NCBI RefSeq assembly: GCF_900089495.1
Contig: NZ_LT605203.1
Span: 62,001 to 126,000 of the forward strand
Direction of reading: 5' to 3'
Length of the DNA: 64,000 bases
From: Thiomonas sp. X19
GTDB taxonomy: Bacteria; Pseudomonadota; Gammaproteobacteria; Burkholderiales; Burkholderiaceae_C
This document shows, one piece after another, positions 26,264 to 57,385 of the stretch. The notes under the pieces are model-generated. The model saw only the letters and a program-made list of their open reading frames with translations, did no database searches and was not told the DNA's origin. Position 1 is the first letter of the stretch, and the number at the start of each line of letters is the position of its first letter. A program made the translations under genes and the position numbers.

Positions 26264-27325
26264 TCAACCATCGTGCGTTGGAGGAAGCTCGACACCGGCC
26301 TCGCGCAAGCGCTGCAGCTTGTGCCTCAGAGTGCGTGGGCTGATCCCAAGCCGCTCGGCCGTCAGCTTTTTCGAGCCGTGGCTGTCTCGCAGTGCGTCGG
26401 CGATCAATTGGCGCTCATTGTCAGCCAGCTCGGCGTCCAGGTCGCGCCTCACGGGGGCACGCGCCGCTTCCATGGCCGCTTGATCGCCAGCAGGCAACTG
26501 TGGCAAGCTTGGTGCAACAGCCTCGAAAGTTTGCAAGAACAGGTCAGAAACGGTGATCACCCCTTGCGAGCAAAGAATCGCCGAACGCTGGATGACGTTC
26601 TCCAGCTCGCGTACATTGCCGGGCCATTGGTGACTCTGCAAGCTTTGCTTTGCCCCCGCATCTAGTTGTGGTGCTGGCCCAAGGCCAAAGCGGGCTGCAT
26701 AGTGCTCCAACATAGAGGTTGCCAACGGCAGGATGTCTTCGCGCCGTTCACGCAACGGCGGAATGCGAAGCGGAAACACACTTAGACGGTAGTACAGATC
26801 TTCCCGCAACACGCCCTGCTTCACCGCCAGTTGCAGCTCGCGGTTACTGGTGGCCACGATGCGCAAATCGAGCGCAATGCGCTTGCGGCCGCCCACGCGC
26901 TCGATTTCACGCTCCTGCAGGACGCGTAACAACTTGGCCTGCAACCCGGCCGCCATTTCCGTCACCTCGTCCAGCATCAGTGTGCCGCCCTGCGCCTGCT
27001 CGAATTTGCCCGGCGCCGACTGCAAAGCGCCGGTGAATGCGCCCTTCTCAAAACCGAACAATGTGGCTTCGAGCAGGGTTTCGGGAATGGCGGCGCAGTT
27101 GATGGCGATGAACGGCGCTTGGGCGCGCGGCGAACTGCGGTGCACGAAGCGCGACACCACTTCCTTGCCCACTCCGCTCTCTCCCAGAAGCATGATGCTG
27201 ACATCCGTTTGCGCGGCTCGTCGCGCCATCTCCAACACTTGCTGCATCGCTGGCGACTGGGCAATCAGACCAGCCCGACCCACAGGTGCTGGTTGGGCTT
27301 CGGAGGAGCAATCCTCATGCATCAT
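26264..27325 (-). CDS. Sigma-54 activator, FleR/FlrC-like but without receiver domain
   Basis: From the ATG at 27325 (353 residues; GTG at 27364 also in frame) the protein has only about 25 residues before the AAA+ domain: Walker A GESGVGKE, the sigma-54-contacting GAFTGA loop, Walker B TLMLDEVTEM, and the R-finger region VFPLRIPPLRERREDILP. The C-terminal Fis-type helix-turn-helix (LTAERLGISPRTLRHKLQRL) matches FlrC/FleR. FlrC and FleR normally carry an N-terminal receiver phosphorylated by FlrB/FleS; here it is missing and no kinase gene is adjacent. It probably activates the fliE, fliK and flgB promoters. I give no gene symbol because of the missing domain. Confidence 0.88.
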   Translation of the reverse strand: MMHEDCSSEAQPAPVGRAGLIAQSPAMQQVLEMARRAAQTDVSIMLLGESGVGKEVVSRFVHRSSPRAQAPFIAINCAAIPETLLEATLFGFEKGAFTGALQSAPGKFEQAQGGTLMLDEVTEMAAGLQAKLLRVLQEREIERVGGRKRIALDLRIVATSNRELQLAVKQGVLREDLYYRLSVFPLRIPPLRERREDILPLATSMLEHYAARFGLGPAPQLDAGAKQSLQSHQWPGNVRELENVIQRSAILCSQGVITVSDLFLQTFEAVAPSLPQLPAGDQAAMEAARAPVRRDLDAELADNERQLIADALRDSHGSKKLTAERLGISPRTLRHKLQRLREAGVELPPTHDG

Positions 27326-27818
27326 TCGATGGCCGCGTCGGGAAGAAGAGGCGCAGCGCGACACCCAGGTTTCTCGGCACCCATCGGGGCGAACATCGCA
27401 TGGATCGTCCTGGGCGCACGCAGGGCCAAGCGCATGTCCAAGTCAGTTTGCAGCCCCAAAGCGGCTGAAGGAACTCGCAAAAATGGGGTCAAGATCGGCA
27501 TCCAGGTCAGTCGCGACGGGACAAGAAGCACCCACCGAGCATTCTGCTTCGGCAGGCATCTGTCCCATGCTAAGCAATTCCAGTGCCCACTGAACCAGTG
27601 GCTTGAGACGAGGGACGCCTTGGGCCGAAACCTCGGGGTTCATCCACCCAGCCTGGACGTCGGCGTCAAAGTCTTGACTCGGACGGCTGCGCCTTAGGCC
27701 CGAAATTTGACGCCATCCTCAGACTGCAAATCGTGCATAGCGTGCGGCATCGTCGGCGCAGATGACTCGCCAACTGGGGCCTGGGGGTGTGGAAACAGCC
27801 CGCGATGCATCTGGACAT
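27326..27818. other. Intergenic region between the two sigma-54 activators
   Basis: About 490 bases without a convincing gene. A minus-strand frame at 27443-27643 could encode 66 residues (starting MNPEVSAQGVPRLKPLVQWA), but it has no ribosome site and no family resemblance. A longer open frame in another register covers the same DNA. It may be a long leader for the downstream activator or the relic of a deleted gene, possibly the kinase or receiver part of a FleSR-type pair. Confidence 0.4.
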
Positions 27819-28898
27819 TCAGGAAATTTCTATCCCACCGGAGTCGTCACGCAATCCGTATTTTTTGATTTTCTCGACCAAGGTGGTGCGCCGCAGGCCC
27901 AGCTTGCTGGCCGCATGTGCGATCACATGACCGCTGACCCCAAGCGCTTGCTTGATGAGCGATCGTTCGATCCGTTCAAGGTAGCTCCGCAAATCGATGC
28001 CTTGTGCCGGCAGCACAGACTCGGGCGGCTCAGCCATCAACTGCATCAGATCGTGCAACCCATCTTCTGTGTCGGCAGCAAGTTCGACAGACAACGTTTG
28101 TGCGCCGGGCGTCAGCATTTTGGCCGGAAGGTCGCGCAGTTGCACCGTGGAGCCGGCATGCATGACAACCAGCCGCTCCATCAAATTGTGCAACTCGCGC
28201 ACATTACCTGGCCAGCGATAGCTCAGCAAGGCCTGCTGCACTCCGTCACCCATTCGGATATGGCCCAGGCCAATTTCTTCGAGGTTCAGTAGCGCCTGCT
28301 CGGCTAGCAGCAGAATGTCTTCGCCACGCGAGCGCAGCGGCGGAATCTGGATGGGAACAACGTGCAACCTGTAAAACAAGTCCTCACGGAAACGCCCAAG
28401 TTGGATTTGCTGTTCCAGATCGCGGTGCGTTGCCGCGACGATACGGGCGTGGGCCTGCAGCGTTTCAGAGCCGCCCACCCGCTCGAACGAGCGTTCTTGC
28501 AGAACTCGCAATATTTTCACTTGCAGCGGGGGGCTCATTTCAGCGATTTCATCAAGAAATAACGAGCCACGTCCCGCGAGTTCGAAACGCCCTTTCCTGG
28601 CCGCCTGCGCTCCGGTAAAAGCGCCGCGCTCGTGGCCAAACAACTCGCTTTCCATCAGTTCGCCCGGGATCGCGCCGCAATTGACCGCGACAAATGGCCG
28701 AAATGCGCGCGACGACCAGGCATGCAGCAAGCGCGCCACCAGTTCCTTGCCAGTGCCGGACTCGCCCTGGATCAGCACTGTGCTGTCCGTGGTGGCGACG
28801 CGGCGGATCAGTGTGCGCAACGCCACCATCGCCGAACTTTCGCCAAGGAGTTGCGGCTCGCGTTCCGCCTCGTCAATCTGTAGGGGTTTGGCTGTCAT
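27819..28898 (-). CDS. Sigma-54 activator, FleQ/FlrA-like but without N-terminal FleQ domain
   Basis: From the ATG at 28898 (359 residues) the AAA+ domain starts almost at once: LLGESSAMVALRTLIRRVAT, Walker A GESGTGKE, GAFTGA, Walker B SLFLDEIAEM, and VVPIQIPPLRSRGEDIL. The C-terminal helix-turn-helix (AASKLGLRRTTLVEKIKKYG) matches FleQ/FlrA master regulators. Full FleQ has about 130 further N-terminal residues, absent here. In Pseudomonas, FleQ binds c-di-GMP through its AAA+ domain; whether this protein does is unknown. It lies downstream of the fliD-to-SPOR genes and upstream of the second activator. Confidence 0.88.
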   Translation of the reverse strand: MTAKPLQIDEAEREPQLLGESSAMVALRTLIRRVATTDSTVLIQGESGTGKELVARLLHAWSSRAFRPFVAVNCGAIPGELMESELFGHERGAFTGAQAARKGRFELAGRGSLFLDEIAEMSPPLQVKILRVLQERSFERVGGSETLQAHARIVAATHRDLEQQIQLGRFREDLFYRLHVVPIQIPPLRSRGEDILLLAEQALLNLEEIGLGHIRMGDGVQQALLSYRWPGNVRELHNLMERLVVMHAGSTVQLRDLPAKMLTPGAQTLSVELAADTEDGLHDLMQLMAEPPESVLPAQGIDLRSYLERIERSLIKQALGVSGHVIAHAASKLGLRRTTLVEKIKKYGLRDDSGGIEIS

Positions 28899-28982
28899 TT
28901 GCAGCGCATTTTCGCATCCGAGACGGTGATGCTCCACACACCATGCGAGCACTGGCGGGGTTTTTGACTTGGCTAGCGCCGC

Positions 28983-30767: not shown

Positions 30768-31349
30768 TCATAGCCCTGAGCGCTGCCGCGCGATCTGCCT
30801 GCGGTGATGGCGAAAGATGAAACGCTCCAGGTCGTTTTGCAAGGCTTCGTCCAACGGCTCGATCTGCAGACGGTGCCACAGCAAATCGTTTTCCACCGAC
30901 TCTTCCACGATCTGACCCGGAAGCATCAGCGGCAAGGCAATGCGGTGGCGCAGATAGATGCGCGCCCAAACCCGCCGGCCAACGCCAACCGCCTCCTCGC
31001 TGCCCCAGTGCAAATACCGCGCCGACAACACGCATGGCCTTTCCTCGGGGATGGTGTTCATGCCGCGAAGCGCCGTACTGGCCATGATCAACAGCAGGTC
31101 GATACGCCGTTCGAGCTGTTGGATGGCATCGTTGCGGCCATGTTCCGTGTCCACGCCCGCACGCGGATCATCCAGCATCAGCAGAGCACGGAGCAGGGTT
31201 GTGTTGTCGATCATCACGTCGGCCAATGCAGACGCCGGTGTGATCGTGTCCACCCAATCCAGTGGCATGCGGCCTTCCAAGCGCACCGCATCGGCGTGCG
31301 GCAACCTGGAAGGCGTATCGAGCGGTTCTGGCGTACCGGTTGCGGTCAT
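30768..31349 (-). CDS. Atypical (tPilZ-like) PilZ domain protein
   Basis: The 193-residue protein has RNDAIQQLERRIDLLLIMAS, a long helix, before a PilZ-like beta region: CVLSARYLHWGSEEAVGVGR, VWARIYLRHRIALPLMLPGQ and ERFIFRHHRRQIARQR. This layout and the position directly after fliS match the atypical tetrameric PilZ proteins of Xanthomonas flagellar clusters. The canonical c-di-GMP motifs RxxxR and D/NxSxxG are not obvious, so c-di-GMP binding is not certain. It probably acts in the cytoplasm on flagellar assembly or the nearby regulators. Confidence 0.7.
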   Translation of the reverse strand: MTATGTPEPLDTPSRLPHADAVRLEGRMPLDWVDTITPASALADVMIDNTTLLRALLMLDDPRAGVDTEHGRNDAIQQLERRIDLLLIMASTALRGMNTIPEERPCVLSARYLHWGSEEAVGVGRRVWARIYLRHRIALPLMLPGQIVEESVENDLLWHRLQIEPLDEALQNDLERFIFRHHRRQIARQRSGL

Positions 31350-34427: not shown

Positions 34428-35903
34428 TTACGGCAGCAGCTTCAAGTAGCTCTGCTGCAGCGAGTTGGCCTGCGCCAGAGTGGAGATGCCGGCTTGCTGA
34501 AGAATTTGATACTTCGACAGTTGCGTCGTCGCCTGGGCGATGTTCGCATCCTGCACCACGGACTGGGCCGCCTGCAGATTGGTCGCGGTGGTCTGCGAGT
34601 TCTGCACCGAGGCTTGAATCCGGTTTTGAATCGCACCTAGCGCACCACCTTGCTGGTTCAGGGCATTGATGGCGTTATCGATGATCGAGATGGCCTGATT
34701 CGAACCTTGGACTGTGGACACATTCACGGTCGAGGCGGCGTTCAGCGAACTGATGTTGGCCAGGCCGATACTGGTGCCGCCGCTCAGCGAGTAGCCCTGG
34801 GTGGACTGCAACTGGACGAAGCCCTGCACCAGTGCCGTGCCCGAGCCGCTGCTAATGGCTGTCGCCGAACCTGCTTGCAGGGTGCCACTGCCGCCGAAAC
34901 CAGAAACCAGGATGTTCTGTCCTTGGTTCTGGCTCAACACCAACTGGTTGCTGGAATTCACACTGGCCGCGATACCGGTTTGTGCCGTGCTGTTGTTGAT
35001 CGACGCGACCAGTCCGCTCAGGCCAGTGGGGTCGGTGCTGGTCACGTTGGCCGAGATGTTGACGGTATTGGTCGGGCTGCCGGAGGTGCCGTTGCTCAGC
35101 GAGAACGAGAACGAACCCGTGGTCACGGTGAAAGCCACGCTGGTATTGGCCGTTGCGCTCACCCCGGTTTGCTGGGTGATCGCATTGAACGCGGCGGCGA
35201 TGTTGGACGCCGATTCGTCAGCCGTGACGGCAACGCCGCTTGCACCCGCCGATCCTGAAATTGAGACGGTACCTGCAGTGAAGCCGCCAGCCCCGGTGTT
35301 GATGGTGTAAGCGGAGCCGTAGCCGTTATTGGTGACCGATCCGCTGGCACCTGCGTAAACCGTGCCGCTTGTGCCGATCGTGTTGACGCCAATGGAGTTG
35401 GCCTGCGAGTTCGCGATGGAAACATTGATCACCTGATTGGCATTCGCGCCGACCTGGAACTGCTGGCCGGAGAAGCTGCCGTCGAGGATGTTCTGCCCGT
35501 TGAACTGGGTTTGCGTCGCAATCGTTTGAACCTGGGCCAGCAGTTGAGACACCACGCCTTGCAGGGAAGCCCGGTCCGACGAGGTGTTGGAGCCGTTGGC
35601 CGACTGAACGGCGATGGTGCGGATCTGCTGCAGCAGGTTGGTTTCGTTTTGCAGCGCGCCGGTGGCGGTTTGCACGAGCGAAACGGCCTGGTTGCCGTTC
35701 GACACCGCTTGGTTCAAGCCGTTGATCTGGGTCTGGAAGCGCTGGGCGATGGCGTAGCCAGCAGGATTGTCGGACGGGCCGTTGATCTGCTTGCCGGTGG
35801 AGAGTTGCTGGATGTAGGTGCTGAGGCTGCTTGATGTGCTGCCGAGGGCGTTGAGTGTATTCAGCGCGTTGACGTTGGTGTTGATGATGCCGGAAATGGC
35901 CAT
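34428..35903 (-). CDS. fliC: Flagellin FliC
   Basis: The 491-residue protein starts MAISGIINTNVNALNTLNAL, the conserved D0 N-terminus, with SSSLSTYIQQLSTGKQINGP and QTATGALQNETNLLQQIRTI. The C-terminal D0/D1 helices include DNAINALNQQGGALGAIQNR and ANIAQATTQLSKYQILQQAG. The middle 250 residues (D2/D3) are Gly/Ser/Thr/Asn-rich and variable, with many possible glycosylation serines and threonines. A GGAG site lies 8 bases upstream of the ATG. An in-frame upstream ATG exists 24 bases earlier. Transcription is from a sigma-28 promoter at 35974-36000, and the leader carries hairpins that look like CsrA sites. It is the only flagellin gene in the window. Confidence 0.97.
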   Translation of the reverse strand: MAISGIINTNVNALNTLNALGSTSSSLSTYIQQLSTGKQINGPSDNPAGYAIAQRFQTQINGLNQAVSNGNQAVSLVQTATGALQNETNLLQQIRTIAVQSANGSNTSSDRASLQGVVSQLLAQVQTIATQTQFNGQNILDGSFSGQQFQVGANANQVINVSIANSQANSIGVNTIGTSGTVYAGASGSVTNNGYGSAYTINTGAGGFTAGTVSISGSAGASGVAVTADESASNIAAAFNAITQQTGVSATANTSVAFTVTTGSFSFSLSNGTSGSPTNTVNISANVTSTDPTGLSGLVASINNSTAQTGIAASVNSSNQLVLSQNQGQNILVSGFGGSGTLQAGSATAISSGSGTALVQGFVQLQSTQGYSLSGGTSIGLANISSLNAASTVNVSTVQGSNQAISIIDNAINALNQQGGALGAIQNRIQASVQNSQTTATNLQAAQSVVQDANIAQATTQLSKYQILQQAGISTLAQANSLQQSYLKLLP

Positions 35904-35973: not shown

Positions 35974-36000
35974 TTGACGGCACGCCACCGCCAGACTTTA
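35974..36000 (-). promoter_or_regulatory. Sigma-28 promoter of fliC
   Basis: TAAAGTCT and GCCGTCAA are 11 bases apart on the minus strand. The first TAA of the -35 box is also the stop codon of the upstream gene (35998-36000). Confidence 0.85.
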
Positions 36001-37272
36001 GCCCTCTCCTTGAGCCTCCCTGTGGCGGCTGGACGCATCCGGCGGGAAAGGACTCGGGATGACTGCGTCGGGCGCCGGCGTGGTCATCTCCGACGGGGCG
36101 AATTCCATCCGCCCTTGCTGCAGCGCAAGCGATAGACGCTGTGACATCGCACCCAGCGTCGTTCGCAAGGAGTCTTGGGCGGATTCCGAATTGCCCCATT
36201 CGGTCGTATCCCGCTCCAGCGCAGAGTGCGTTTGCTGCAATGCAGCAGTCATGGTTTGTAGCTCCAGCGCAGCCTGCTGCAGGAATGCGACCAACACCTG
36301 CCGGGTCTGCGGCCCCGGCAGTGGCCATGCAGACGGCTCGCCAGCGCTCGGGGCTGGCTCCGGCTCGAACCAGGTCCGTTCTGCTGCACGAACCTGATCC
36401 TGCAAAACCGCAGCCTCGGCGCATAAGGGCTCCAGATCCTCGACCACCGAGGCCAATTCTGGGTTCTCGTCACGCTCCAGGCTGATGCGCTCCAGTGTGA
36501 GACGGAAATTCAGCCCCAACAATTGCATGGATTCGGCAAGCCGCGTCGCCGTTTGCACGAAGGCACGCTTCGTCTCGGCGGCATGCGTTCGCCCTTCGTG
36601 TTTTTCAGTTAAAGACGTAGGCGCCATCTCCGCAGCTTTCAACAGTGCTGAGACGGGCTGCAGTGCGGTTTCGAGAGAGGCGACACTGGCCTTCAGGCTG
36701 AGCTGTAACGGTTCCAGGCTCGAACGGACGCGTGCTTGACGATCCGCTTGCGCCGCCCCCTGAAGCGGCATGCCGGCGAGCATCCGCTCGACCTCCGCAA
36801 GAGTGCTGAGGATGGTCCGATGCATCGCAACTGCCATTGAGTTGGCGGCTAGGGCACGGGCTTGGCCAACGGCAAGGTCATGCTGACAAGCATGCCATTT
36901 CTTGTTGGTATCGGCCAGTTCCTGTTGCTGGCGACGGGAGACGACGCGCAAATCGTCGAGCAGGCCGCGCCACTCGGGCGCGACATCGACATCAGTACCC
37001 GGTGGCGCAGCCCCACGCATCAGGGCTTGGGCCGTGATGCGCAAACGGCCCTGTTCGATCTTGATGCTCAGGCCGAGATAGAGGGCCAAAAACAGCGCGA
37101 GCACGGCCCCTCCCCCTAGGGCGAGGTTCAGCATCGATCCATTGGCCGTGGCCGCGGATGCGCCGATCAGGCCAGGAGCGAGCGCACCACGCGCCAGCCA
37201 CCACAAACCGACCATCCACGCGCTGCACAGCAGCCACATCAGGAACAAGGCCCGCATCGGGGAGATTTTCAC
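35998..37272 (-). CDS. Two-TM helical membrane protein of the four-gene operon, MCP-like layout without hairpin tip
   Basis: The 424-residue protein starts with a GTG at 37272 that overlaps the upstream stop (GTGA). It has membrane helices at about 8-30 and 50-70 with a very short periplasmic loop, then a long cytoplasmic helical region: LRVVSRRQQQELADTNKKWH, AVAMHRTILSTLAEVERMLA, LKASVASLETALQPVSALLK and FVQTATRLAESMQLLGLNFR. The plan resembles a chemoreceptor, but the conserved glutamate-rich signalling tip (E-x-R-x-AEQ-x-GFAVVA) is absent, and so is a HAMP signature. The C-terminus is a Pro-rich tail. It is encoded after two CheW-domain proteins, so it may be their membrane anchor. I do not recognise a named family. 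Confidence 0.6.
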   Translation of the reverse strand: MKISPMRALFLMWLLCSAWMVGLWWLARGALAPGLIGASAATANGSMLNLALGGGAVLALFLALYLGLSIKIEQGRLRITAQALMRGAAPPGTDVDVAPEWRGLLDDLRVVSRRQQQELADTNKKWHACQHDLAVGQARALAANSMAVAMHRTILSTLAEVERMLAGMPLQGAAQADRQARVRSSLEPLQLSLKASVASLETALQPVSALLKAAEMAPTSLTEKHEGRTHAAETKRAFVQTATRLAESMQLLGLNFRLTLERISLERDENPELASVVEDLEPLCAEAAVLQDQVRAAERTWFEPEPAPSAGEPSAWPLPGPQTRQVLVAFLQQAALELQTMTAALQQTHSALERDTTEWGNSESAQDSLRTTLGAMSQRLSLALQQGRMEFAPSEMTTPAPDAVIPSPFPPDASSRHREAQGEG

Positions 37273-37865
37273 GTTTCAAACTCCGGGAAGACATGCAGCC
37301 GCCGCGCATCTGCGGCCGCGCCGAACTCGGACATGACGGCAAGGCAGCCGTGCCATAGAGCCGGCGCATGCAGCAAGGCACAGACCTCGCCATCGGGCGC
37401 CGATGCCAGCGGCAACAAGGCGAACATGGCGTTCCAAGGCGGCGATAAGCCGGGGCTCACAGGGATCCACTCCGGCGCGAGGGCCGAGTCGCGGTGGAAC
37501 CCTCGCACCGCGTCGACCGCCACGGCCCAGGCATGCGCCGGTCCCTGACACACCAGCAGGCGTGTCTGCGGCTGACCCAGGCTCGCGCGCCTGCCAAGGC
37601 TGAAACCAAGATCGAGCACGACCAAAACTCTCCCCTGCCACGCCAGCAAGCCGGGGCAATGTGGGTTGTGGCCAGGCAGGGGGAAAAGGCCGGAGGGCAA
37701 GAGAATCTGCCGCACTTGGCGGCTGTCGATGGCACATAGCTGGCCATCGGCCTCGAACAGCAACCAACTCCCGAAACCCTGCGCAACAGCGGGTTCTGCA
37801 TCACGCGTCTGCACCCCTGGCGGGAGATGCGATCCGACATGCAGGGAGGCCGGGGCTGGATTCAT
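37269..37865 (-). CDS. CheW-like protein
   Basis: The 198-residue protein starts at the ATG at 37865, overlapping the previous stop (ATGA). The CheW fold is indicated by SWLLFEADGQLCAIDSRQVR, QILLPSGLFPLPGHNPHCPG, LLAWQGRVLVVLDLGFSLG and LLVCQGPAHAWAVAVDAVRG. CheW proteins bridge CheA and receptors. No CheA kinase is in the window, and this CheW is divergent at the usual GxxxxVxDL region, where VVLDLG is kept. It probably works with the adjacent HPt-CheW and two-TM proteins rather than with the main chemotaxis array. Confidence 0.75.
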   Translation of the reverse strand: MNPAPASLHVGSHLPPGVQTRDAEPAVAQGFGSWLLFEADGQLCAIDSRQVRQILLPSGLFPLPGHNPHCPGLLAWQGRVLVVLDLGFSLGRRASLGQPQTRLLVCQGPAHAWAVAVDAVRGFHRDSALAPEWIPVSPGLSPPWNAMFALLPLASAPDGEVCALLHAPALWHGCLAVMSEFGAAADARRLHVFPEFET

Positions 37866-39388
37866 CGCCGCTTGCCACGGACCTGCCCCTGAAGGCGCGA
37901 CAGAAACCTCAGCGAGAGCAAAAACGCCATCGAACTCGCCGCCTGCGGCATCACCGCGGCCGCCTCGATGCCATACGGCGCTCCGATCTGCGGCGGAATG
38001 GACCAGAAATGCAGAGTCTGGACGGGAGCACATGTATCCACGCGCAGCGCGAAAAACTGCTCACGGTACTGCAGCAACAACATGCGCGAGGTCTCGGCGG
38101 GCAATGCGCCCCAGGCGGATTCGAGGCTCAGCACCGGTACGGCGCCAACATCCGTGAACAGCAGCGCTTCGCCACGAGGCAGGCTCAAACTGCGGTTATC
38201 CATGGGAACAACGCCCAGCACACACGTAGCAGGCAAGGCAAGCGACCAAGCGCCGATGCGCGCCAAACGCACTTCGATACCGGCATCCCAGGGTTGATGC
38301 CGGCGGACTTGTGGTGCGCCTTTCTCCATCTGACTTGAGCTGTCGGCCGCTTTGACGTCAGGATTCATGTCGGCAACTTTCATCGGCGCGATGGGCACCG
38401 ATGAAAGTTCAGGCTCAGCAATGACTGGGGATGCGGCGACTACTTTGACTTGCCATGGCTCCCAGGCTTCGCGCAATTCCCGCCAGCTCTTGATCTGCTC
38501 GCGCAACAAGCCCGGGATCTCCGCCAGCAGCTGTAAAAACGGTTCTGTAGCAAACGCGCTGCCACCCGAAATGTCTTGTTTTCCCTCGGTGGGAGGCGGC
38601 GGCTGCAAGTCAGCTACGGGACCGGAGGGGTGCGCGCCGTCCCTTGACGCCTGCGCTGCTTCGGGTGCCATGGTCGCCGATGCTGGTGAAGGAGCCACGA
38701 CTTCCGCGAGAGGTGGTCCTGGTTCGGGTGGATCGAGGTCGGCGGCCTTGATTGCTGGCGGCTCAATGTCGGGCCGTTTGACGGGTGGATCCTGATCGAT
38801 TGCGGTCGCGGGCTGGGCCGCAATCGAGAACCCAACCGATGTAGCCGCCTGGTCGGAGCCAGACGTCATGGATTCCGCTGCTGCAACCACCGTGGGCGCC
38901 GACGCTGCCTCGGCGACTTGAGCAAGCAGTATTTCCGCAGCCGGAGATGCAGCCGGAGATGCAGCCGGGTCCGGTCGCTCAGGGGAGCCTTGGGCCAGCC
39001 CGACGACATGATCCTGTAGCGGCTCAGTCTCAAGATCCCCCAGGGGCTGAAGCGTGCGGCGCAACCCAGTCACCACCACCCGCAGGACGTCCCAGCGCAC
39101 AGGCATTCCTGCGCTGACGCCAGGCAGTTGCACCAGCAATTCCTGCTCGCCTTGCCGGCAGAGTTGGCGTACGGCCTCCAGCCCAAGAAAATCAGCGCCG
39201 ATGCGAATGCCTCGCAGCGCCTCGCCGGCATGGCCAAGCGCTTGCATGGACTCGACGCCCACGGCAACATCGGCCAGGGCTTGCTCGAACTGGGCGAGAA
39301 AGACGCCGGCATCGCGCGCGAAGGCCGCCATCAACTCGTCCGCAGAGGCTTGGGCGAGATTCACCACCAGCTCCGTGGCAGGCAACAC
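37862..39388 (-). CDS. CheA-like fusion: degenerate HPt domain plus CheW domain, no kinase
   Basis: The 508-residue protein (GTG start at 39388) has three parts. Residues about 10-110 resemble the CheA P1/HPt helical bundle, with LGHAGEALRGIRIGADFLGL where HPt domains have HTLKG-xxG-x-FG; the phospho-accepting histidine position is E56, with a histidine three residues earlier. Residues about 115-350 are a Pro/Ala/acidic low-complexity linker. Residues about 365-500 are a CheW-like domain (IGAWSLALPATCVLGVVPMD, GAVPVLSLESAWGALPAE, LLLQYREQFFALRVDTCA). There is no dimerisation or ATP-binding domain, so it cannot be a kinase. It overlaps the CheW-like gene downstream and follows a diguanylate-cyclase gene by 60 bases. 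It may be a non-phosphorylatable adaptor. Confidence 0.7.
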   Translation of the reverse strand: MLPATELVVNLAQASADELMAAFARDAGVFLAQFEQALADVAVGVESMQALGHAGEALRGIRIGADFLGLEAVRQLCRQGEQELLVQLPGVSAGMPVRWDVLRVVVTGLRRTLQPLGDLETEPLQDHVVGLAQGSPERPDPAASPAASPAAEILLAQVAEAASAPTVVAAAESMTSGSDQAATSVGFSIAAQPATAIDQDPPVKRPDIEPPAIKAADLDPPEPGPPLAEVVAPSPASATMAPEAAQASRDGAHPSGPVADLQPPPPTEGKQDISGGSAFATEPFLQLLAEIPGLLREQIKSWRELREAWEPWQVKVVAASPVIAEPELSSVPIAPMKVADMNPDVKAADSSSQMEKGAPQVRRHQPWDAGIEVRLARIGAWSLALPATCVLGVVPMDNRSLSLPRGEALLFTDVGAVPVLSLESAWGALPAETSRMLLLQYREQFFALRVDTCAPVQTLHFWSIPPQIGAPYGIEAAAVMPQAASSMAFLLSLRFLSRLQGQVRGKRR

Positions 39389-39448
39389 GGGTTCGGCCCG
39401 GACTTCATGGCGTCAGGACCTTCGATGTTTCCGCACTGGTGCTTCAGT

Positions 39449-40441
39449 TCAGGCCCCACTTGAACCTGTCTTGGCCCAGCGGAACTCGCCCATCTGCTGC
39501 GATCGCGCTTTGGCGGCATAGAGCGAAGTGTCAGCCTCGCACAGGATCTGGGGGATGGCGGCGTTTGGGTCCAACGCGGCGATTCCGGCGGAAAACTGCG
39601 CCGACAAGGCTTGGCTCTGCACCTGCAGCAGGGGTTCTCGTTGCGGTCGGCTGCGAATGCGTTCAACAACCGTGTTCGCCTGCTCGTCTGTGGTCCGGGG
39701 CGGGCAGATCACGCATTCGTCACCGCCGTAGCGAAAAGCGGCGTCGTCAGGCCGAAATTCCGCCTGCAGCATCGTGACGGAGGCCCCCAGAGAGCGGTCG
39801 CCAGCGAGATGACCATAACGGTCGTTGACAAGTTTGAACTGGTCAAGATCGATGAGCGCAAGCGCGCAAGAATGATCATGCCGCCTCATCACCCCTGCAT
39901 GTTCAGCGAGCAGTCGCTGCGGCGGCGCTCGGCGTCCCGGTAGACCGGTGAGCGGGTCGGGGCCAGTTCGCTGTGCCGTGAGTTCGGCCTCGATTTCAGC
40001 GATCTGCAGCAGGGAGGCCAGGCCGCTGTCCACGATGGCGTCGTGGATGCGCAAAGCCTCGGGTTGGGATTTGCTCGCAGCCGCCAGGCTGGAGACCCGT
40101 CCATCGAGACCCTGGAACTCTGCCATCAGCGCGGCGCTTGCAGTGGTCAGTGTGCCCGTGCGAAGCGCCGGCTCCATCGCCGGACGCAAATGCTGCTCGA
40201 TGGCCTCAATCGGCAGCGCCGCCACGGCTCTCGGCTTCTGGCGATAGGCGCCCTGGCGCAGGCAGCGTTGCAGCCATGAAGACAGCAAGCTTCGAGCCAT
40301 ACGAATGGCTACAGAGTCAGGGCTCTCAGCACCTTCATTTGGCCATGAATCCACAGCGTCCAGCCTGTCTCCCGCAGCACCGATCATGACCGGGTGCGGG
40401 GTGCTGGCTTCGATATTCGTTGTGATTGCCGCAGCCGACAT
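39449..40441 (-). CDS. Diguanylate cyclase with GGDEC signature
   Basis: The 330-residue protein starts at the ATG at 40441 (AGGAG 8 bases upstream; an in-frame GTG is too close to it). Residues 1-155 are helical without a recognised sensor domain. Residues about 160-320 form a GGDEF domain: DPLTGLPGRRA, LIDLDQFKLVNDRYGHLAGD, the active loop YGGDEC at 238-243 (Cys replaces the last Phe), and an inhibitory RxxD site at 230-233, five residues before GGDEC. The changed last residue is outside the catalytic core, so activity is plausible. It is the first gene of the four-gene operon and follows a perfect -24/-12 promoter, so c-di-GMP synthesis is tied to flagellar expression. Confidence 0.85.
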   Translation of the reverse strand: MSAAAITTNIEASTPHPVMIGAAGDRLDAVDSWPNEGAESPDSVAIRMARSLLSSWLQRCLRQGAYRQKPRAVAALPIEAIEQHLRPAMEPALRTGTLTTASAALMAEFQGLDGRVSSLAAASKSQPEALRIHDAIVDSGLASLLQIAEIEAELTAQRTGPDPLTGLPGRRAPPQRLLAEHAGVMRRHDHSCALALIDLDQFKLVNDRYGHLAGDRSLGASVTMLQAEFRPDDAAFRYGGDECVICPPRTTDEQANTVVERIRSRPQREPLLQVQSQALSAQFSAGIAALDPNAAIPQILCEADTSLYAAKARSQQMGEFRWAKTGSSGA

Positions 40442-40475
40442 GGGCACAGCTCCTAGGGATGATTGCTCAAAACAA

Positions 40476-40490
40476 GCAAACCTGGTGCCA
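40476..40490 (-). promoter_or_regulatory. Perfect sigma-54 promoter of the GGDEC-HPt-CheW operon
   Basis: The minus strand reads TGGCACCAGGTTTGC followed by T, an exact match to TGGCAC-N5-TTGCT. Start expected near 40464, about 23 bases before the ATG at 40441. Confidence 0.85.
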
Positions 40491-40660: not shown

Positions 40661-41449
40661 TCAAGGCCCCATCGCCACCATGATTTGTCCAGCCCCGTCG
40701 ACAACGCCGGTGACGACCTTGCCGGATTGGACATTACGCGCCAGGATGGTTTGCCCCTGGCGCCCGTTTTCCATGGCCATACCCAAGGCCACCAGTCTCA
40801 CCCCCTGACCCAGTGCGACCAAGGAAACCGACTGCCCATAGTGAATCAACTGCGGTCCGGCGAGCATGCCTTGGGTGACGCTCTGCCCGGCCGCCACGCT
40901 GTATTGCAGAACCCTGCCGATGGCCTGCGCCGGCTTGGTGATCGCGCCTGCGGGCAGGCTCGACAGGTCACGCTGCACGATGGCCAGATCGCCCTCGGTC
41001 AGCACATGCCCGGCACCAAGCGCCCGCGCTGCAACCACCGCCCCCTGCGGCCAAGCCACCTGAACCGGTAGATAGAGAGACCAGACCTGAGGTGTCAAAC
41101 AGGCCACCTCGACGGTCTGCGCGCCGAAAGGGTTGGCAGCGCCGAAGTCACGCGCCTGCATATGCCCGCAGCGGGGAAAATGCAGGCCCTCCACAGGCCC
41201 CTGAACGGTGATGCGCGCATCTTGCGATTGTTGTGGCAGGCGACTTCGGACGAAATGCTCGACGACCTGGCGAATGCTTTCGGCGGGCTCCCAGGCCGTG
41301 GCATCAGCCGCTGCGGCCATGCTGGAAGCCCATAAACCTGCGCCAAAGACGGTGAACGTGACGAGCAGCAAGCAGCGCACTCCACGCCAAAGACCGGAGC
41401 ACTGTTGCGAAGCTCTCGCCTGAACGCTCATCCAACCCACACCGCACAT
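40661..41449 (-). CDS. flgA: Flagellar P-ring assembly chaperone FlgA
   Basis: I use the ATG at 41449 (262 residues), 9 bases after an AAGGAA ribosome site; 41455 is also possible. A signal peptide (CLLLVTFTVFGAGLWASSMA) targets it to the periplasm. The SAF and C-terminal domains are clear: VLTEGDLAIVQRDLSSLPAG, AGQSVTQGMLAGPQLIHYGQ and MENGRQGQTILARNVQSGKV then VTGVVDGAGQIMV. FlgA assists FlgI polymerisation into the P ring; flgI is at 47065. It is divergent to flgB. Confidence 0.92.
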   Translation of the reverse strand: MCGVGWMSVQARASQQCSGLWRGVRCLLLVTFTVFGAGLWASSMAAAADATAWEPAESIRQVVEHFVRSRLPQQSQDARITVQGPVEGLHFPRCGHMQARDFGAANPFGAQTVEVACLTPQVWSLYLPVQVAWPQGAVVAARALGAGHVLTEGDLAIVQRDLSSLPAGAITKPAQAIGRVLQYSVAAGQSVTQGMLAGPQLIHYGQSVSLVALGQGVRLVALGMAMENGRQGQTILARNVQSGKVVTGVVDGAGQIMVAMGP

Positions 41450-41554
41450 CTTCATGCTTCCTTTCGTCGCCAGCCAGCCTTCAATGGTTCGCAAGGCCGC
41501 GTCGATCCCGACCCGATTCCACCCCATGCGGGATTGACCATCCACCTCCATGCT

Positions 41555-41569
41555 GCAAGGTCCATACCA
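41555..41569 (-). promoter_or_regulatory. Candidate sigma-54 promoter of flgA
   Basis: The minus strand reads TGGTATGGACCTTGC, with GG and GC 10 bases apart. The -24 half is weaker than in the other promoters. Start expected near 41543, giving a leader of about 95 bases. Confidence 0.45.
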
Positions 41570-41628
41570 CTGGAGCGCCAAGGTATTCGACTGGTGACCC
41601 AGTCCAGGAAGAAGCCGGAGTGAACCCA

Positions 41629-41652
41629 GCTTTGCCGCCGAAGCGGCAAAGC
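41629..41652. repeat. Perfect hairpin between flgA and flgB
   Basis: GCTTTGCCGC, the tetraloop CGAA and GCGGCAAAGC form a 10-bp perfect stem. No T run follows on either strand, so it is not a typical terminator. It lies midway between the two candidate promoters. Confidence 0.8.
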
Positions 41653-41723
41653 CTTGCCGCTCCTGTTGGGTGCCGCTGGCACGGATGGCCGCATGCAGGC
41701 AAGGGCTGACGTGGCGGAGGCAC

Positions 41724-41738
41724 TGGCACGCTTCGTGC
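41724..41738 (+). promoter_or_regulatory. Sigma-54 promoter of the flgB operon
   Basis: TGGCACGCTTCGTGC has a perfect -24 box (TGGCAC) and GC 10 bases after GG. Start expected near 41750, about 22 bases before the flgB ATG. Confidence 0.7.
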
Positions 41739-41771
41739 AGAAGACATGGCATCCACCGCCACGACCTGACC

Positions 41772-42191
41772 ATGAACTCCGCCCTCGACCGCGCATTCGC
41801 ACCGCTGCAAACCGCGCTGGACCTGCGCGCGTATCGACAGCAACTGCTGGCGGCGAACATGGCCAATGCCAATACGCCGCATTACAAGGCTGTGGACCTT
41901 GACTTCTCCGCTGCGCTTCAAAGTGCGCTCCAACAAACGCCCGGCCAGACCCAGGGTTCCCTGGCGCTGAAAGTTGAGCAATCCGGCCAACAACAAGGCA
42001 CCCAGACCGCGAGCCCGGCAGCCGCCTTCGTCGCCTACCAGGCAGGCAATTCCGTGAGGCTCGATGGCAACTCGGTCGACATGAGCCGAGAACAGGCCTC
42101 ATTCCAAAAGAACAGCATCCAGTACGAGGCCGATCTGACCTTCCTCACCGGCAAGATCAAGACGCTGACCTCTGCCATCACTGGCAACTGA
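41772..42191 (+). CDS. flgB: Proximal rod protein FlgB
   Basis: The 139-residue protein has the rod-protein N-terminus [20 protein letters not shown] (the N-x-AN-x-xTP motif) and [20 protein letters not shown] near the C-terminus. FlgB is a proximal rod subunit exported by the flagellar type III system. The ATG at 41772 fits the family start; the longer frame upstream is promoter DNA. It heads the flgBCDEFGHIJ operon. Confidence 0.95.
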
Positions 42192-53068: not shown

Positions 53069-56000
53069 ATGACATCGAGCCAGACCCATCTTTGGGAGTC
53101 CATCGACAGCGCTGAAGAGACCGGGATCGGGGCTTATCACAGCAACCCACGCGCTGATCTGCTGAGTCTATTGCGGCAGCCACCACGCCGAGTCCTCGAC
53201 GTCGGCTGCGCATCCGGCGCGATGGGGGCTTGGCTCAAACGCCAATTTCCCAAAGTGGAACTCTGGGGCATCGAGGCCAACCCCCATGTCGCCCGCCAGG
53301 CGCAGGCGCACTACCACCGTGTCATGCCGGGCTTGCTGGAAGACGTCGATCTGGCGGCCCAGGGGCTGCAGGCCGCGAGCCTCGACACCCTGGTTCTGGC
53401 CGATGTCCTCGAACACATGCGCAACCCATGGCGCGCGCTGCACGCCCTGCGGCCCTGGCTGTCCGGTGACGCGCAGGTCCTGATCAGCCTTCCCAACGCC
53501 CGCAACCTCTGGCTGCTCAACGAGCTGGCCGAGGGCCGCCTGACCTACGAGCCATCCGGCATTCTCGACATCACCCATCTGCGGTTCTTCACCCGCGACG
53601 AGGGCCAGCGCATGCTGGAGCAGACGGGGTACACGGTCGAGGCCGTCAGCTACGGACCCGACAGCCGTTTTTTCCAGACCCCGCGCCCAGCCGCCTTCCC
53701 CGCCAACCTCGAAACCGAGCATCTGGTGCTCAAGAACGTCGATGCCGACGAGTACCAGCAACTCATCAGCCTGCAGATTTTTTATCGCGCCCGCTCGCAA
53801 CCCGCCGAATCCCGCGTGTTCATTCCCACCCGCGCAGCCATGCCGGCGTCCGCGGCCGGCCATGCCGAATCCCGCGTGTTGCGCGCCGGCCAGCAGCAAG
53901 GCACGGGAACGGCCGTCCTGCTGCACCTCTACTACCCCGAACTCTGGCCCGAATTCGCCCGGATGCTGGCCGCGCTGCCCGAGCCCAAGGATCTGTATAT
54001 CTCGCTCAGCGCGGGGCGTGAGGATGTTCTGGACGACATCGCACGCGACGCCCCGCAGGCTTTTGTTCTCAGCCACCCTAACCGGGGCCGCGACATCGCG
54101 CCGCGTCTGGCCTTGTTGCGCCATGCACGCACGAAGCGTTATGACCAGTTGCTGTTTCTTCACGGCAAAAAATCCCCCCATCTACGCGAAGTCCAGAACA
54201 TCCAGATCCCGTTCCTCCAGCATCGGGATGGTGATCGCTGGCGCCAGGAACTGATGGCCGCGTTGCTGGGAGCGCCGCTGCAGGTCCAGTCCGCTTTCGC
54301 GCGTAACCCCAGGCTTGGATTGATCGGGCCTTCGGGCTTCTGGCTCGGCCTGCGCGGCGACCCCAATCTGCCACGCCTGGCCGGGCTGACCCAACGCATG
54401 GGCATCGCCCCCGATGTCTCGCGCCATGGCTATTTCGCCGGGTCCATGTTCTGGTGCCGTCCTCAGGCGCTGGATCCCTTGCTGGCGCTGAATCTGAGCG
54501 AAGCCGATTTCGACGCGGAGGAAGGCCAGATCGATGCGACCTTGGCGCATGCCGTGGAGCGCTTGTTCGCGCTGAGCGCCGAGAAAGCCGGCTTTCAGAT
54601 TGCCGATACCGCCGGCAACATCCTGGCCGAACCTCCGCGGCCCATCCATCCCTGGCTGCCCGAAGGCCGCTGGCTGCCCCGGGAAAAGGACTGGGCGCTG
54701 CAGACCATCGGCGGCTGGGCCAGCGCCAAGCCGCCGCCGCGATTCGCCCTCGCCTTGCTCCCGCATGCCACCCAGCCTGCCCAGGCCACGGCCGCCAGCC
54801 TCGACGCGCAGTGGCTCGGCGCACAGGCTCTGAACCTTCCGCAAGCGGAATCGGCTGTTGCATTGCTGCATGCGGCCAACCAAGCGCTGAAAGACAACGG
54901 CGCGGATTGGCTTGGCCTGGTCGACGCCGGCGACCAACTCGCGCCCGACGCGCTGTTCCGCATAGCCCATGCCGTGCGCGAGCATCCGGAATGGCAACTG
55001 GTCTACACCGACGAGGACAACCTCACGCCCGACGGCCAGCATGTCAACCCGCATTGCAAGCCGGACTTCAATCTGGACTATCTGCGCAGCCTGCCCTACG
55101 TCGGCGGACTGATGCTGGTGCGGCGCGACCTGTTCGCGGCCCTGGGGGGATTCGACGCCGCGCACGAAGGCGCCGAGGACTACGACCTCGCGCTGCGCGC
55201 CTGGGAGCATCTGCACGCCACGGGGGCGGGGGATGCCGCGATTGGCCATGTGCCCGAGGTGCTGTACCACCGGCTGCAGGGTTCCGGGCACACGCGCAAA
55301 TCGGTCCCGGAGATTCTGGCTGCGGGCCAGGCTGCGCTGGAGCGGCATTTCCAGCGCCTGGGCATCGCCGCGACGGTCCAGCCCGGACCTTTCCCGCCCG
55401 CGTTCCGCGTCCACTGGCCCTTGCCCGAAGTCAAGCCGCTGGTGTCCATTCTGGTGCCGACGCGCGACCAGTTGCCCATGCTGCAGCGCTGCATCGAGTC
55501 CTTGATCGAGAAGACGCGCTGGCCGCGCTATGAAATCCTCATCATCGACAACGACAGCCAGGCTGACGATGCTTGCAAATACCTGGCCGCGATCGAGGCC
55601 AAGGAGGCCGAACTCGGCGACCGTCTGCGCGTGATCCGCCAGCCCGGTCCGTTCAATTTCTCGGCGATGAACAACACCGCGGCGCGTGCGGCGCGCGGCG
55701 ACTATCTGCTGCTGCTGAACAACGACACCGCGGTGCTGCACGAGGACTGGCTCGACGAGATGATGGGCCATGCCCTGCGCCCGGACGTGGGCATCGTCGG
55801 CGCCAAGCTGCTGTACCCGGACGGCAAGATCCAGCATGCCGGCGTCATCCTCGGCATGCGGGGCCCGGCCGAACATCCCTTCATCGCCCGCGCGCCCGAA
55901 GACCGCGGTTATTTCGGTCGCGCCCAATTGACGCAGAACTATTCCGCCGTCACAGGTGCATGCCTGCTCGTGCGCAAGAGCGTGTACGGGCAAGTTGGCG

Positions 56001-57385
56001 GACTGGACGAAAACGACTTCAAGGTGTCGTACAACGACATCGACCTGTGCCTGAAGGTGCGCGAAGCCGGCCTGCGCGTCGTCTGGACACCCTATGCCCT
56101 GCTGATGCACGAAGGCTCGGCGAGTCAGAAAGGCAAGGTGGAACAAGAGGCCCCCAGCCCGCCGCAAGCGGCGGTCGCCCCACGAGGGGGTGAGAAAACC
56201 TTGGGACGGCCCGGCGGTTTTCTCCAAGCCAAGAAGCCGGACGAGGCCAAGCTCAGGCGCTTTGCTGCCGAGAAGGATGCGATGTACGCCAAATGGCTGC
56301 CGAAGCTGGCGTTCGACCCGGCCTACAACCGCCACCTCAGCCTGGCCAGCACCGACTTTCTGCTGGAAGATCAGCCGCCCCTGAGCTGGGATCCGGCCTG
56401 GCACCCGCGTCCGCGCATCCTGGTACACCCCGCTGACCGCGAAGGTTGCGGCGAATATCGAATCATCGCGCCGATGCGTGCGCTCAACCGCGCTGGCGTC
56501 ACTCAGGGCTGGGAAACCATGCGCCTGTACGAGCCCGCGGAAATGGAGCGCATGCAGCCCGACAGCCTGGTGGTGCAACGCCAGATGGAATGGCCGCAGA
56601 TCGAGGCGCTGGAACGACACGCGCGCACCAGCAAGGCATTTCGCGTGTTCGAGATTGACGATCTCATCACCAATCTACCGCTCAAGAGCGTGCACAAAAG
56701 TAGCATCCATAAAGACATCGCCAAGCGCTTCCGCAAGGCCGCCGGCCTGTGCAACCGCTTGGTCGTGGCCACTGAGCCACTGGCGAAGGCCTATGCCGGG
56801 TTCAGTGACGAGGTGGTGGTCATGCCCAACTATCTGGAAGCCGCGCGCTGGGGTGCCCTGCAGCCGGTTCGCGCCGAGCGAGCCCGGCCGCGTGTGGGCT
56901 GGGCGGGCGGCATCGGGCACACCGGAGATTTGGAACTCATCGTCGATGTCGTGCGGGAAACAGCCGCCGAGGTGGACTGGGTGTTCTTCGGCCTGTGCCC
57001 GGAGGCACTCAAGCCGCTGGTGAAGGAATTTCACCCGGGCGTGCCGCTGGACCAGTACGCGGCCAAGCTCTCCAGCCTGGATCTGGACCTCGCTGTCGCT
57101 CCCCTTGAAGACAACGCGTTCAACGCAGCCAAGAGTCATTTGCGTCTTCTTGAATACGGCATCCTTGGCTATCCGGTGATCTGCTCGGATCTGCCGCCTT
57201 ATCAGGGGGATTTCCCGGTGACCCGCGTGGCCAATCGCTTCCGCGACTGGAGTCGCGCCCTGCGTGACGCCATCGCCGACCGCGCCGCATTGCGCGCCCA
57301 GGGCGACGCATTGCGCGCCAAGGTACTGGCCCATTGGATGATGGAAGACCACCTCGATGCCTGGCTCAAAACCTGGACGGCCTGA
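53069..57385 (+). CDS. Five-part methyltransferase/glycosyltransferase, probable flagellin glycosylation enzyme
   Basis: The 1438-residue protein is a chain of enzyme domains. Residues about 35-220 are a SAM methyltransferase (RVLDVGCASGAMGAWL, VLADVLEHMRNPW). Residues about 270-520 resemble RgpF rhamnan-synthesis proteins (SHPNRGRDIAPRLALLRHAR). About 560-770 is a GT2-like domain with YTDEDN. About 785-1025 is a full GT2 domain (VSILVPTRDQLPMLQRCIES, LLLNNDTAVLHEDWLDEMMG, GACLLVRKSVYGQVGGLDEN). About 1110-1438 is a GT4-like domain (GCGEYRIIAPMRAL, VGWAGGIGHTGDLELIVDVV, LRLLEYGILGYPVICSDL). Between the last two lies an in-frame copy of a dispersed repeat (about 1027-1052). It follows flgL by 4 bases, and fliC has a Ser/Thr-rich variable region, so filament glycosylation is the natural guess; LPS or capsule sugar synthesis is the alternative. 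Confidence 0.8.
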   Translation: MTSSQTHLWESIDSAEETGIGAYHSNPRADLLSLLRQPPRRVLDVGCASGAMGAWLKRQFPKVELWGIEANPHVARQAQAHYHRVMPGLLEDVDLAAQGLQAASLDTLVLADVLEHMRNPWRALHALRPWLSGDAQVLISLPNARNLWLLNELAEGRLTYEPSGILDITHLRFFTRDEGQRMLEQTGYTVEAVSYGPDSRFFQTPRPAAFPANLETEHLVLKNVDADEYQQLISLQIFYRARSQPAESRVFIPTRAAMPASAAGHAESRVLRAGQQQGTGTAVLLHLYYPELWPEFARMLAALPEPKDLYISLSAGREDVLDDIARDAPQAFVLSHPNRGRDIAPRLALLRHARTKRYDQLLFLHGKKSPHLREVQNIQIPFLQHRDGDRWRQELMAALLGAPLQVQSAFARNPRLGLIGPSGFWLGLRGDPNLPRLAGLTQRMGIAPDVSRHGYFAGSMFWCRPQALDPLLALNLSEADFDAEEGQIDATLAHAVERLFALSAEKAGFQIADTAGNILAEPPRPIHPWLPEGRWLPREKDWALQTIGGWASAKPPPRFALALLPHATQPAQATAASLDAQWLGAQALNLPQAESAVALLHAANQALKDNGADWLGLVDAGDQLAPDALFRIAHAVREHPEWQLVYTDEDNLTPDGQHVNPHCKPDFNLDYLRSLPYVGGLMLVRRDLFAALGGFDAAHEGAEDYDLALRAWEHLHATGAGDAAIGHVPEVLYHRLQGSGHTRKSVPEILAAGQAALERHFQRLGIAATVQPGPFPPAFRVHWPLPEVKPLVSILVPTRDQLPMLQRCIESLIEKTRWPRYEILIIDNDSQADDACKYLAAIEAKEAELGDRLRVIRQPGPFNFSAMNNTAARAARGDYLLLLNNDTAVLHEDWLDEMMGHALRPDVGIVGAKLLYPDGKIQHAGVILGMRGPAEHPFIARAPEDRGYFGRAQLTQNYSAVTGACLLVRKSVYGQVGGLDENDFKVSYNDIDLCLKVREAGLRVVWTPYALLMHEGSASQKGKVEQEAPSPPQAAVAPRGGEKTLGRPGGFLQAKKPDEAKLRRFAAEKDAMYAKWLPKLAFDPAYNRHLSLASTDFLLEDQPPLSWDPAWHPRPRILVHPADREGCGEYRIIAPMRALNRAGVTQGWETMRLYEPAEMERMQPDSLVVQRQMEWPQIEALERHARTSKAFRVFEIDDLITNLPLKSVHKSSIHKDIAKRFRKAAGLCNRLVVATEPLAKAYAGFSDEVVVMPNYLEAARWGALQPVRAERARPRVGWAGGIGHTGDLELIVDVVRETAAEVDWVFFGLCPEALKPLVKEFHPGVPLDQYAAKLSSLDLDLAVAPLEDNAFNAAKSHLRLLEYGILGYPVICSDLPPYQGDFPVTRVANRFRDWSRALRDAIADRAALRAQGDALRAKVLAHWMMEDHLDAWLKTWTA
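56149..56226 (+). repeat. Dispersed G/C-rich repeat, copy 2, in-frame within the glycosyltransferase
   Basis: GGCCCCCAGCCC, then a GCCGC..GCGGC palindrome, CACGAGGGGGTGAGAAAACC, a G/C block and GGTTTTCTCCAAGCC. The same order of blocks occurs on the minus strand at 1256-1352. Here the insert keeps the reading frame and encodes a basic/Pro/Gly linker (PSPPQAAVAPRGGEKTLGRP) between the GT2 and GT4 domains. Confidence 0.75.

Follow-up and report, generated by a model that had tools for sequence, protein, structure and literature searches.

A conserved flagellar operon with chemosensory-like proteins and no kinase, located before fliC in Thiomonas sp. X19

Introduction

What can a chemosensory-like set of proteins do beside the flagellin gene if it contains no kinase? 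The question is raised by four minus-strand genes between flgA and fliC in a 64,000-nucleotide stretch of Thiomonas sp. X19 (contig NZ_LT605203.1, positions 62,001 to 126,000; hereafter the window). They encode a diguanylate cyclase (DGC), an adaptor named P1W, a CheW-like protein and a membrane coiled-coil protein named TMR. P1W consists of a CheA-P1/HPt-like domain, a PE-rich linker and a degenerate CheW/P5-like domain, and has no kinase core. A kinase-less chemosensory-like set tied to flagellum genes had been proposed in an earlier note made from the sequence alone, and comparison across genomes bore this out: the set is conserved and lies before fliC. We favor, at a probability of roughly one half, a reading in which the operon codes for a dedicated receptor-CheW-adaptor scaffold. 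It would be non-phosphorylating, work without phosphotransfer, derive from the chemosensory core unit and be co-regulated with the flagellum. This reading is based on the diverged hairpin, CheW and P5-like end, on the missing phospho-His and kinase, and on the occurrence of one-chain forms. A search of the open-licence literature, with subscription papers and preprints outside its scope, found no description of the operon.

Results

Operon layout and promoters

The genes and promoters of the locus, all on the minus strand, are as follows.

40661-41872, minus strand: flgA, an open frame from TTG whose true start is probably further inside; it is the upstream neighbor in the loci reaching that far.
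40475-40490, minus strand: sigma-54 type operon promoter, TGGCACCAGGTTTGCT, with 0 mismatches.
39449-40447, minus strand: DGC, with a GTG start and an alternative ATG two codons in, at 40441.
37862 to about 39364, minus strand: P1W, with a GTG start and in-frame GTGs at 39367 and 39388 as alternative starts.
37269-37865, minus strand: CheW-like protein, with a PF01584 match.
35998-37272, minus strand: TMR, with N-terminal hydrophobic helices followed by long helices.
35974-36000, minus strand: sigma-28-like fliC promoter, TAAAGTCTGGCGGTGGCGTGCCGTCAA, starting at base 36000 and overlapping the TMR stop codon.
34428-35903, minus strand: fliC (flagellin).

P1W overlaps the CheW-like gene by 4 bases, as does the CheW-like gene with TMR, and the gap from DGC to P1W is 60-84 bases. 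The location of a four-gene operon with overlapping or close genes, a perfect sigma-54 promoter ahead of it and a fliC promoter directly after it, all described in the earlier note, were each found in place.

Sigma-54 sites with one mismatch occurred in the window at chance level (8 observed vs 4.6 expected). The pattern TGGCA(C/T)N5TTGCT, whose C/T option was set after inspecting an earlier scan of sites, was complete in 22 of 23 flgA-to-operon stretches from three genera, and the site of the remaining stretch (L026) was visible in a separate scan. Its score was reached in none of 200 single-base shuffles for 21 of the 22 stretches and in one of 200 for the other. The site was retained in all four genomes that lack the DGC gene (G005, G012, G022 and G024). 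An apparent absence of the site from two genomes was dropped, because the first scan had begun at the P1W C-terminal match and a rescan showed the site present.

The window's fliC promoter has 10 of the 12 sigma-28 consensus bases, and a site lying on the TMR stop was detected in only the window and its sister genome G001 among the 16 loci scanned; in five more it lay 84-135 bases past the stop, and in the remaining nine the same scan recognized no site.

Conservation of the operon before fliC

The order flgA-[DGC]-P1W-CheW-TMR-fliC recurred in three genera, namely that of the window and two labeled g73 and g50; the fliC rows in these neighborhood scans mark the place of fliC only. Within the window's genus, TMR was matched in 16 of 28 genomes and three more (G016, G019 and G025) hold other operon genes, giving 19 of 28. 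Every one of the 16 genus members in which fliD was matched has one or more operon genes, and the nine genomes without operon genes had no fliD match either. Three genomes (G014, G024 and G025) have operon genes and no fliD match; their assemblies are fragmented. TMR was unmatched in 22 fliD-positive genomes of other genera from the same sample of 60, where the genome scans score the best few candidates per genome and absence is not strict.

Among 399 family genomes, P1W was matched in 44. In 12 of these the match lay in the P1 or CheW-like part: the window's genus contributed six, g73 five and g50 one. In the remaining 32, which were discounted, only or mainly the PE-rich linker columns were aligned. 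In g73, three genomes (G099, G214 and G292) show the full order flgA-DGC-P1W-CheW-TMR-fliC, G417 has it across two contigs, and G359 has flgA-DGC-P1W followed by the contig end. Two tandem flagellin-like matches follow TMR in G099 (L052 3487-6649, minus strand), and two were also seen in G214 (L054). The single g50 genome, G076, has the order flgA-DGC-(P1W+CheW)-TMR-like-fliC, in which TMR was recognized by eye only. The g73 P1 domain matched public proteins of Thiomonas arsenitoxydans and Thiomonas sp. at 83% and 77% identity, and g73 is read as Thiomonas on account of these matches.

Order-wide and class-wide samples were thin. In an order-wide sample of 399 genomes, including only a few from the family, the P1 profile matched the window's own genome only, and the TMR profile matched its own genome and weakly one other (G529, 6.8e-4, first 42 positions), which was discounted as a membrane-helix match. 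In a class-wide sample of 369, the P1 profile matched its own genome and three others, from outside the order, judged to be ordinary CheA, one (L060) from the typical CheA stretch FRAFHTVKGGA near flhF-type genes and two from their similar score and genus.

P1W has CheA-like ends and no kinase

Three parts of P1W were located, all on the minus strand.

39035-39364, minus strand: P1-like four-helix domain, residues 1-110.
39212-39214, minus strand: Arg51 codon, at the CheA P1 phospho-His position by profile alignment.
37865-38299, minus strand: C-terminal CheW/P5-like domain, about residues 356-500, from Foldseek and a weak Pfam match.

Pfam gave a weak Hpt match at the N-terminus (0.013) and a weak CheW match at the C-terminus (0.0066), both under the curated cut-offs. 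A four-helix HPt bundle was predicted for the N-terminal domain in the structure model, with the P1 domain of Rhodobacter sphaeroides CheA3 (3kyi/3kyj) among its fold matches, and a CheW/P5 fold was predicted for the C-terminal end with low confidence. The top Foldseek matches of the C-terminal domain were chain A of the E. coli core signaling unit (8c5v, 7.1e-5; 6s1k, 9.5e-5), which we take to be CheA, followed by CheA P4-P5 and CheW chains. The Pfam CheW match at this end was obtained in 2 of 11 members, and profile comparison of the domain with four CheW-family domains of the same genome was not significant. A search of PDB with the full P1W profile matched mostly low-complexity or PE-rich proteins and was discounted.

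No kinase (dimerization or ATPase) domain was detected in 14 P1W proteins, namely that of the window, 11 of 11 aligned members and three divergent ones, of which L047 was scanned without its N-terminal part, indicating that the set is not a recent truncation. Arg51 aligned with the phospho-His of both CheA P1 domains of the same genome; the position is Arg in 12 of 12 rows of the P1W alignment and Gly in G012, which is outside that alignment. The earlier description of a P1/HPt-CheW fusion without a kinase core stands on a predicted HPt fold, a CheW/P5 end of low confidence and homologues free of a kinase domain. The glutamate placed at the phospho-His position has to be replaced by Arg51; Glu48 lies three residues earlier.

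A survey of CheA homologs reports the core domains P1, P3, P4 and P5 in every one covered (PMC10782961). P1W is not a CheA, since core domains are missing. Three public relatives of P1W (P0021, P0022 and P0028) are labeled 'histidine kinase' or 'CheA'. The nearest single protein in layout known to us is R. sphaeroides CheA3, the partner of CheA4, which likewise has an N-terminal P1, a long middle and a C-terminal P5 without an active kinase. CheA3 keeps its phospho-His, is phosphorylated in vitro and makes one functional CheA with a second protein (PMC10782961), whereas P1W has Arg at that position and no partner kinase in the operon.

The CheW-like protein has diverged from canonical CheW

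The CheW-like protein was identified as such by Pfam, above the cut-off (PF01584, 8.7e-15), as the earlier note had it, and its profile matched CheW structures at 7.5e-6. A salt bridge between Glu38 and Arg62 is conserved in F7-class canonical CheW (PMC3828127). With the E. coli positions transferred through the alignment, these sites are Gln53 and Gln77 in the window protein; across 22 CheW-like members they are Gln/Gln in 19, Ser/His in one (G011), Gln/Arg in one (G076) and Glu/Arg in one (G019). The loss of this pair, which the genome's own canonical CheW retains, suggests that the protein may be insulated from canonical arrays.

In G019 (L047 7239-8417, minus strand) and G076 (L058 9621-11075, plus strand), the CheW-like domain and the P1W C-terminal domain are joined in one chain, the G019 contig ending before the P1 part. 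These one-chain forms suggest that P1W and the CheW-like protein may work together; they are also the two CheW-like members closest to canonical CheW.

These observations bear on the main rival explanation, in which P1W and the CheW-like protein are ParP-like accessories inserted in canonical arrays, with TMR and/or the pseudo-HPt tethering the arrays to the flagellated pole. Vibrio ParP has an N-terminal interaction domain that binds an anchor, joined by a long linker rich in proline to an array domain of CheW/P5 type (PMC5706961), a layout matching that of P1W, and the first 13 kb past the window end contain two full CheA genes. A ParC partner and a CheA LID domain also belong to the ParP system. 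Against this explanation, the Glu38/Arg62 pair is lost in 21 of the 22 CheW-like proteins and a receptor-like protein is encoded within the operon. P1W also differs from ParP in the HPt fold of its N-terminal domain, and its operon in supplying a CheW-like protein as well. We regard this explanation as unlikely. CheV and CheW adaptors share the CheW fold with the CheW-like protein; the operon proteins differ from them in having no receiver, in the replaced Glu38/Arg62 of most members and in the fusion of the P1W CheW-like domain to a pseudo-HPt.

TMR carries a conserved hairpin

The best-conserved stretch of TMR is a hairpin.

36421-36522, minus strand: conserved TMR hairpin, LLGLNFRLTLERISLERDENPELASVVEDLEPLC, a possible divergent receptor tip by profile alignment to the genome's own methyl-accepting chemotaxis proteins (MCPs).

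It carries the motif L-L-x-L-N-x-R-L-x-L (LN(F)RLxLER), with Asn255 identical in 27 of 27 rows. When TMR was compared with seven MCPs of the same genome, the best local match fell exactly on the MCP tip (LLALNAAIEAARAGE...GFAVVA), and its score was equaled in 7 of 300 and 7 of 600 column permutations that kept the heptads (p 0.01-0.03). No convincing Pfam family was found for TMR, and its structure model, with hydrophobic N-terminal helices followed by long helices, is unreliable (mean pLDDT 57). TMR was not accepted as an ordinary MCP, as it had no MCPsignal match and its profile and fold matches were weak and non-significant; the relationship is kept as possible. The protein had been described as a membrane protein without the MCP tip; no MCPsignal match was seen, and the conserved hairpin may be a divergent receptor tip.

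The DGC is a loose part of the operon

The DGC comprises an N-terminal region (about residues 40-160) and a GGDEF domain (164-317; PF00990, 4.4e-32), with two motifs.

39713-39727, minus strand: active-site signature GGDEC, against GG(D/E)EF in each of the 18 further DGCs compared.
39743-39754, minus strand: RxxD inhibitory-site motif RPDD, five residues upstream of GGDEC, against R(P/S)YD in the same 18 DGCs.

A GGDEC cyclase with an RxxD site is thus present as reported, but GGDEC occurs only in the window genome among the 19 DGCs. No receiver domain was seen in the DGC by Pfam scan, and its N-terminal region had no convincing PDB relative, the best being a designed coiled coil (0.0057). The genome as a whole has 37 GGDEF matches, partial ones counted.

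The DGC adjoins flgA in 13 genomes of the window's genus. In 4 of 17 decidable genomes (the same four that retain the sigma-54 site), it is absent beside P1W while P1W-CheW-TMR is retained; absence was scored only at the flgA/P1W locus, and presence was undecidable in G004 and G016. A tree of CheW and TMR placed the four genomes in two places; a single DGC loss is still possible, because the separating branch has a support of only 0.75 and a neighboring branch 0.30. The DGC is a loose part of the operon.

At 91 positions invariant in seven other DGCs, the window protein has 12 private changes and its sister G001 has two; at one of these positions both depart from the invariant residue, each with a residue of its own, and eight further changes are common to the two. 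The other three operon genes of the window have 3 private changes in 147 invariant positions. Two of the 12 alter the motifs above: the F of GGDEF is changed to C, and the Y of the RxxD motif to D. The window cyclase may therefore be weak or dead; by its sequence, it looks decayed. Cyclic di-GMP (c-di-GMP) synthesis, previously proposed as the core output, is not supported in that role, with a DGC that is missing beside P1W in four genomes and looks decayed in the window. The array-like complex and the tie to flagellum assembly or placement, also put forward in the earlier note, are putative.

A receptor, CheW, a CheA-like protein and a DGC also make up a set in the Wsp surface-sensing system (PMC8552884). 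The operon could be a degenerate sensor of Wsp type, descended from an MCP-CheW-CheA-DGC pathway but minus kinase and receiver, in which the receptor controls the DGC by direct contact, with the same part types and a DGC within the operon in all three genera. The operon is not Wsp as described: no WspE kinase-REC, WspR REC-GGDEF, WspC or WspF, and no CheB, CheR, REC or kinase, was found among the four proteins by Pfam, the DGC has no receiver and is dispensable, and the operon is linked to fliC. This origin of the present function is considerably less likely than the tethering role above.

Evidence that weighs against a dedicated scaffold

Several results count against the favored reading, most of them concerning TMR as the receptor. 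Pfam gave no MCPsignal match in the window TMR or in five divergent members, and for 16 TMR members MCPsignal was not among the 25 shown of 30 weak families. Alignment of TMR to the own MCPs with hhalign gave a probability below 1% (P 0.1-0.2), and the score of 19.0 compared with 16.5 and 16.6 for reversed controls and dropped when divergent members were added (19.0, 16.2, 15.7). The MCP matches of the poor TMR model (E 0.058 and up) were mixed with unrelated coiled coils, and the PDB profile search gave a designed bundle at 0.00079 vs one MCP at 0.22. The weak hhalign P, the close reversed controls and the falling score make the tip match a hint and not proof. The CheW-like end of P1W likewise rests on a low-confidence region of the model.

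A further point is weak constraint. The ratio of non-synonymous to synonymous substitution (dN/dS) against G001 was 0.38-0.50 for all four operon genes, compared with 0.06 for fliD, 0.11 for an atypical PilZ (tPilZ) gene, 0.14 for a sigma-54 activator, 0.23 for flaG and 0.55 for a SPOR-domain gene. The high values could mean a minor role; with 0.55 for the SPOR-domain gene, the operon does not stand out by its weak constraint. A relic under decay, with leftover genes of little function, would agree with these values and with the private changes of the window DGC. On the other side, dN/dS is below 1, the TMR, CheW-like and P1W matches in the genus scans are free of stops, the promoter and gene order are retained in three genera, and among the four genes only the DGC has an excess of private changes (12/91 columns vs 3/147 in the other three). 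We consider a relic very unlikely.

Genomic setting

Chemotaxis genes start just past the window end (L045, C3:126001-146000). These 20 kb hold two CheA genes, each with P1, dimerization, ATPase and CheW domains, one CheW, one CheV-type protein and six of the nine MCP matches of the genome; a third kinase-dimerization match lies elsewhere. With normal chemotaxis genes so near, the operon would be an addition to chemotaxis and not a replacement. The region also contains an ODP-family protein and a CZB-domain MCP.

Other genes of the window are listed below.

26264-27364 and 27819-28952, minus strand: two sigma-54 activators in the flagellar cluster, consistent with a flagellar hierarchy under sigma-54.
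30768-31349, minus strand: tPilZ c-di-GMP receptor gene after fliD, likewise after fliD in relatives reaching it; its product is a possible c-di-GMP reader at the flagellum.
1419-3554, minus strand: Protoglobin-GAF-EAL protein, likely an oxygen-linked c-di-GMP phosphodiesterase.
57496-58800, plus strand: HDOD protein, with an EAL domain matched in the last part only.
53069-57385, plus strand: very long methyltransferase-RgpF-glycosyltransferase protein; the flagellar genes lie in this window too, and a role in glycosylation is possible.

Discussion

How might a phosphotransfer-free scaffold work at this locus? Expressed from the sigma-54 promoter just ahead of flagellin, TMR would be the membrane-anchored, receptor-like part, near whose helical hairpin P1W, through its CheW/P5-like end, and the CheW-like protein would dock. 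The pseudo-HPt would transfer no phosphate and would serve as a protein-binding arm on a long flexible linker, which would let it reach a partner; the first such partner may have been the cyclase. The original job of the scaffold was perhaps to hold or switch the neighboring cyclase at the flagellated site, and in genomes with a missing or decayed-looking cyclase the scaffold would retain a separate task, such as placing or tuning motility proteins. Gene content, conservation, the promoter sequence, the absence of a kinase and of the phospho-His, and the loss of the CheW Glu-Arg pair are shown by the comparison, whereas the complex, the docking and the output are inferred. More specifically, and tentatively, the proteins may form a phosphotransfer-free chemosensory array that keeps the core geometry of hairpin, CheW and P5 for scaffolding only, with the pseudo-HPt bringing the diguanylate cyclase, or some other effector, to the flagellum.

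In the current understanding, chemosensory arrays are machines for controlling a kinase. A conserved, flagellum-linked set that has the structural parts but lacks the kinase would show what the scaffold alone does, the operon being a natural separation of scaffolding from phosphorylation. The finding also bears on public proteins that carry the name 'histidine kinase' or 'CheA' although no kinase domain is seen in their family. If g73 is Thiomonas, as inferred, the set can be tested in a genus whose motility and biofilm gene expression have already been studied (PMC5481541).

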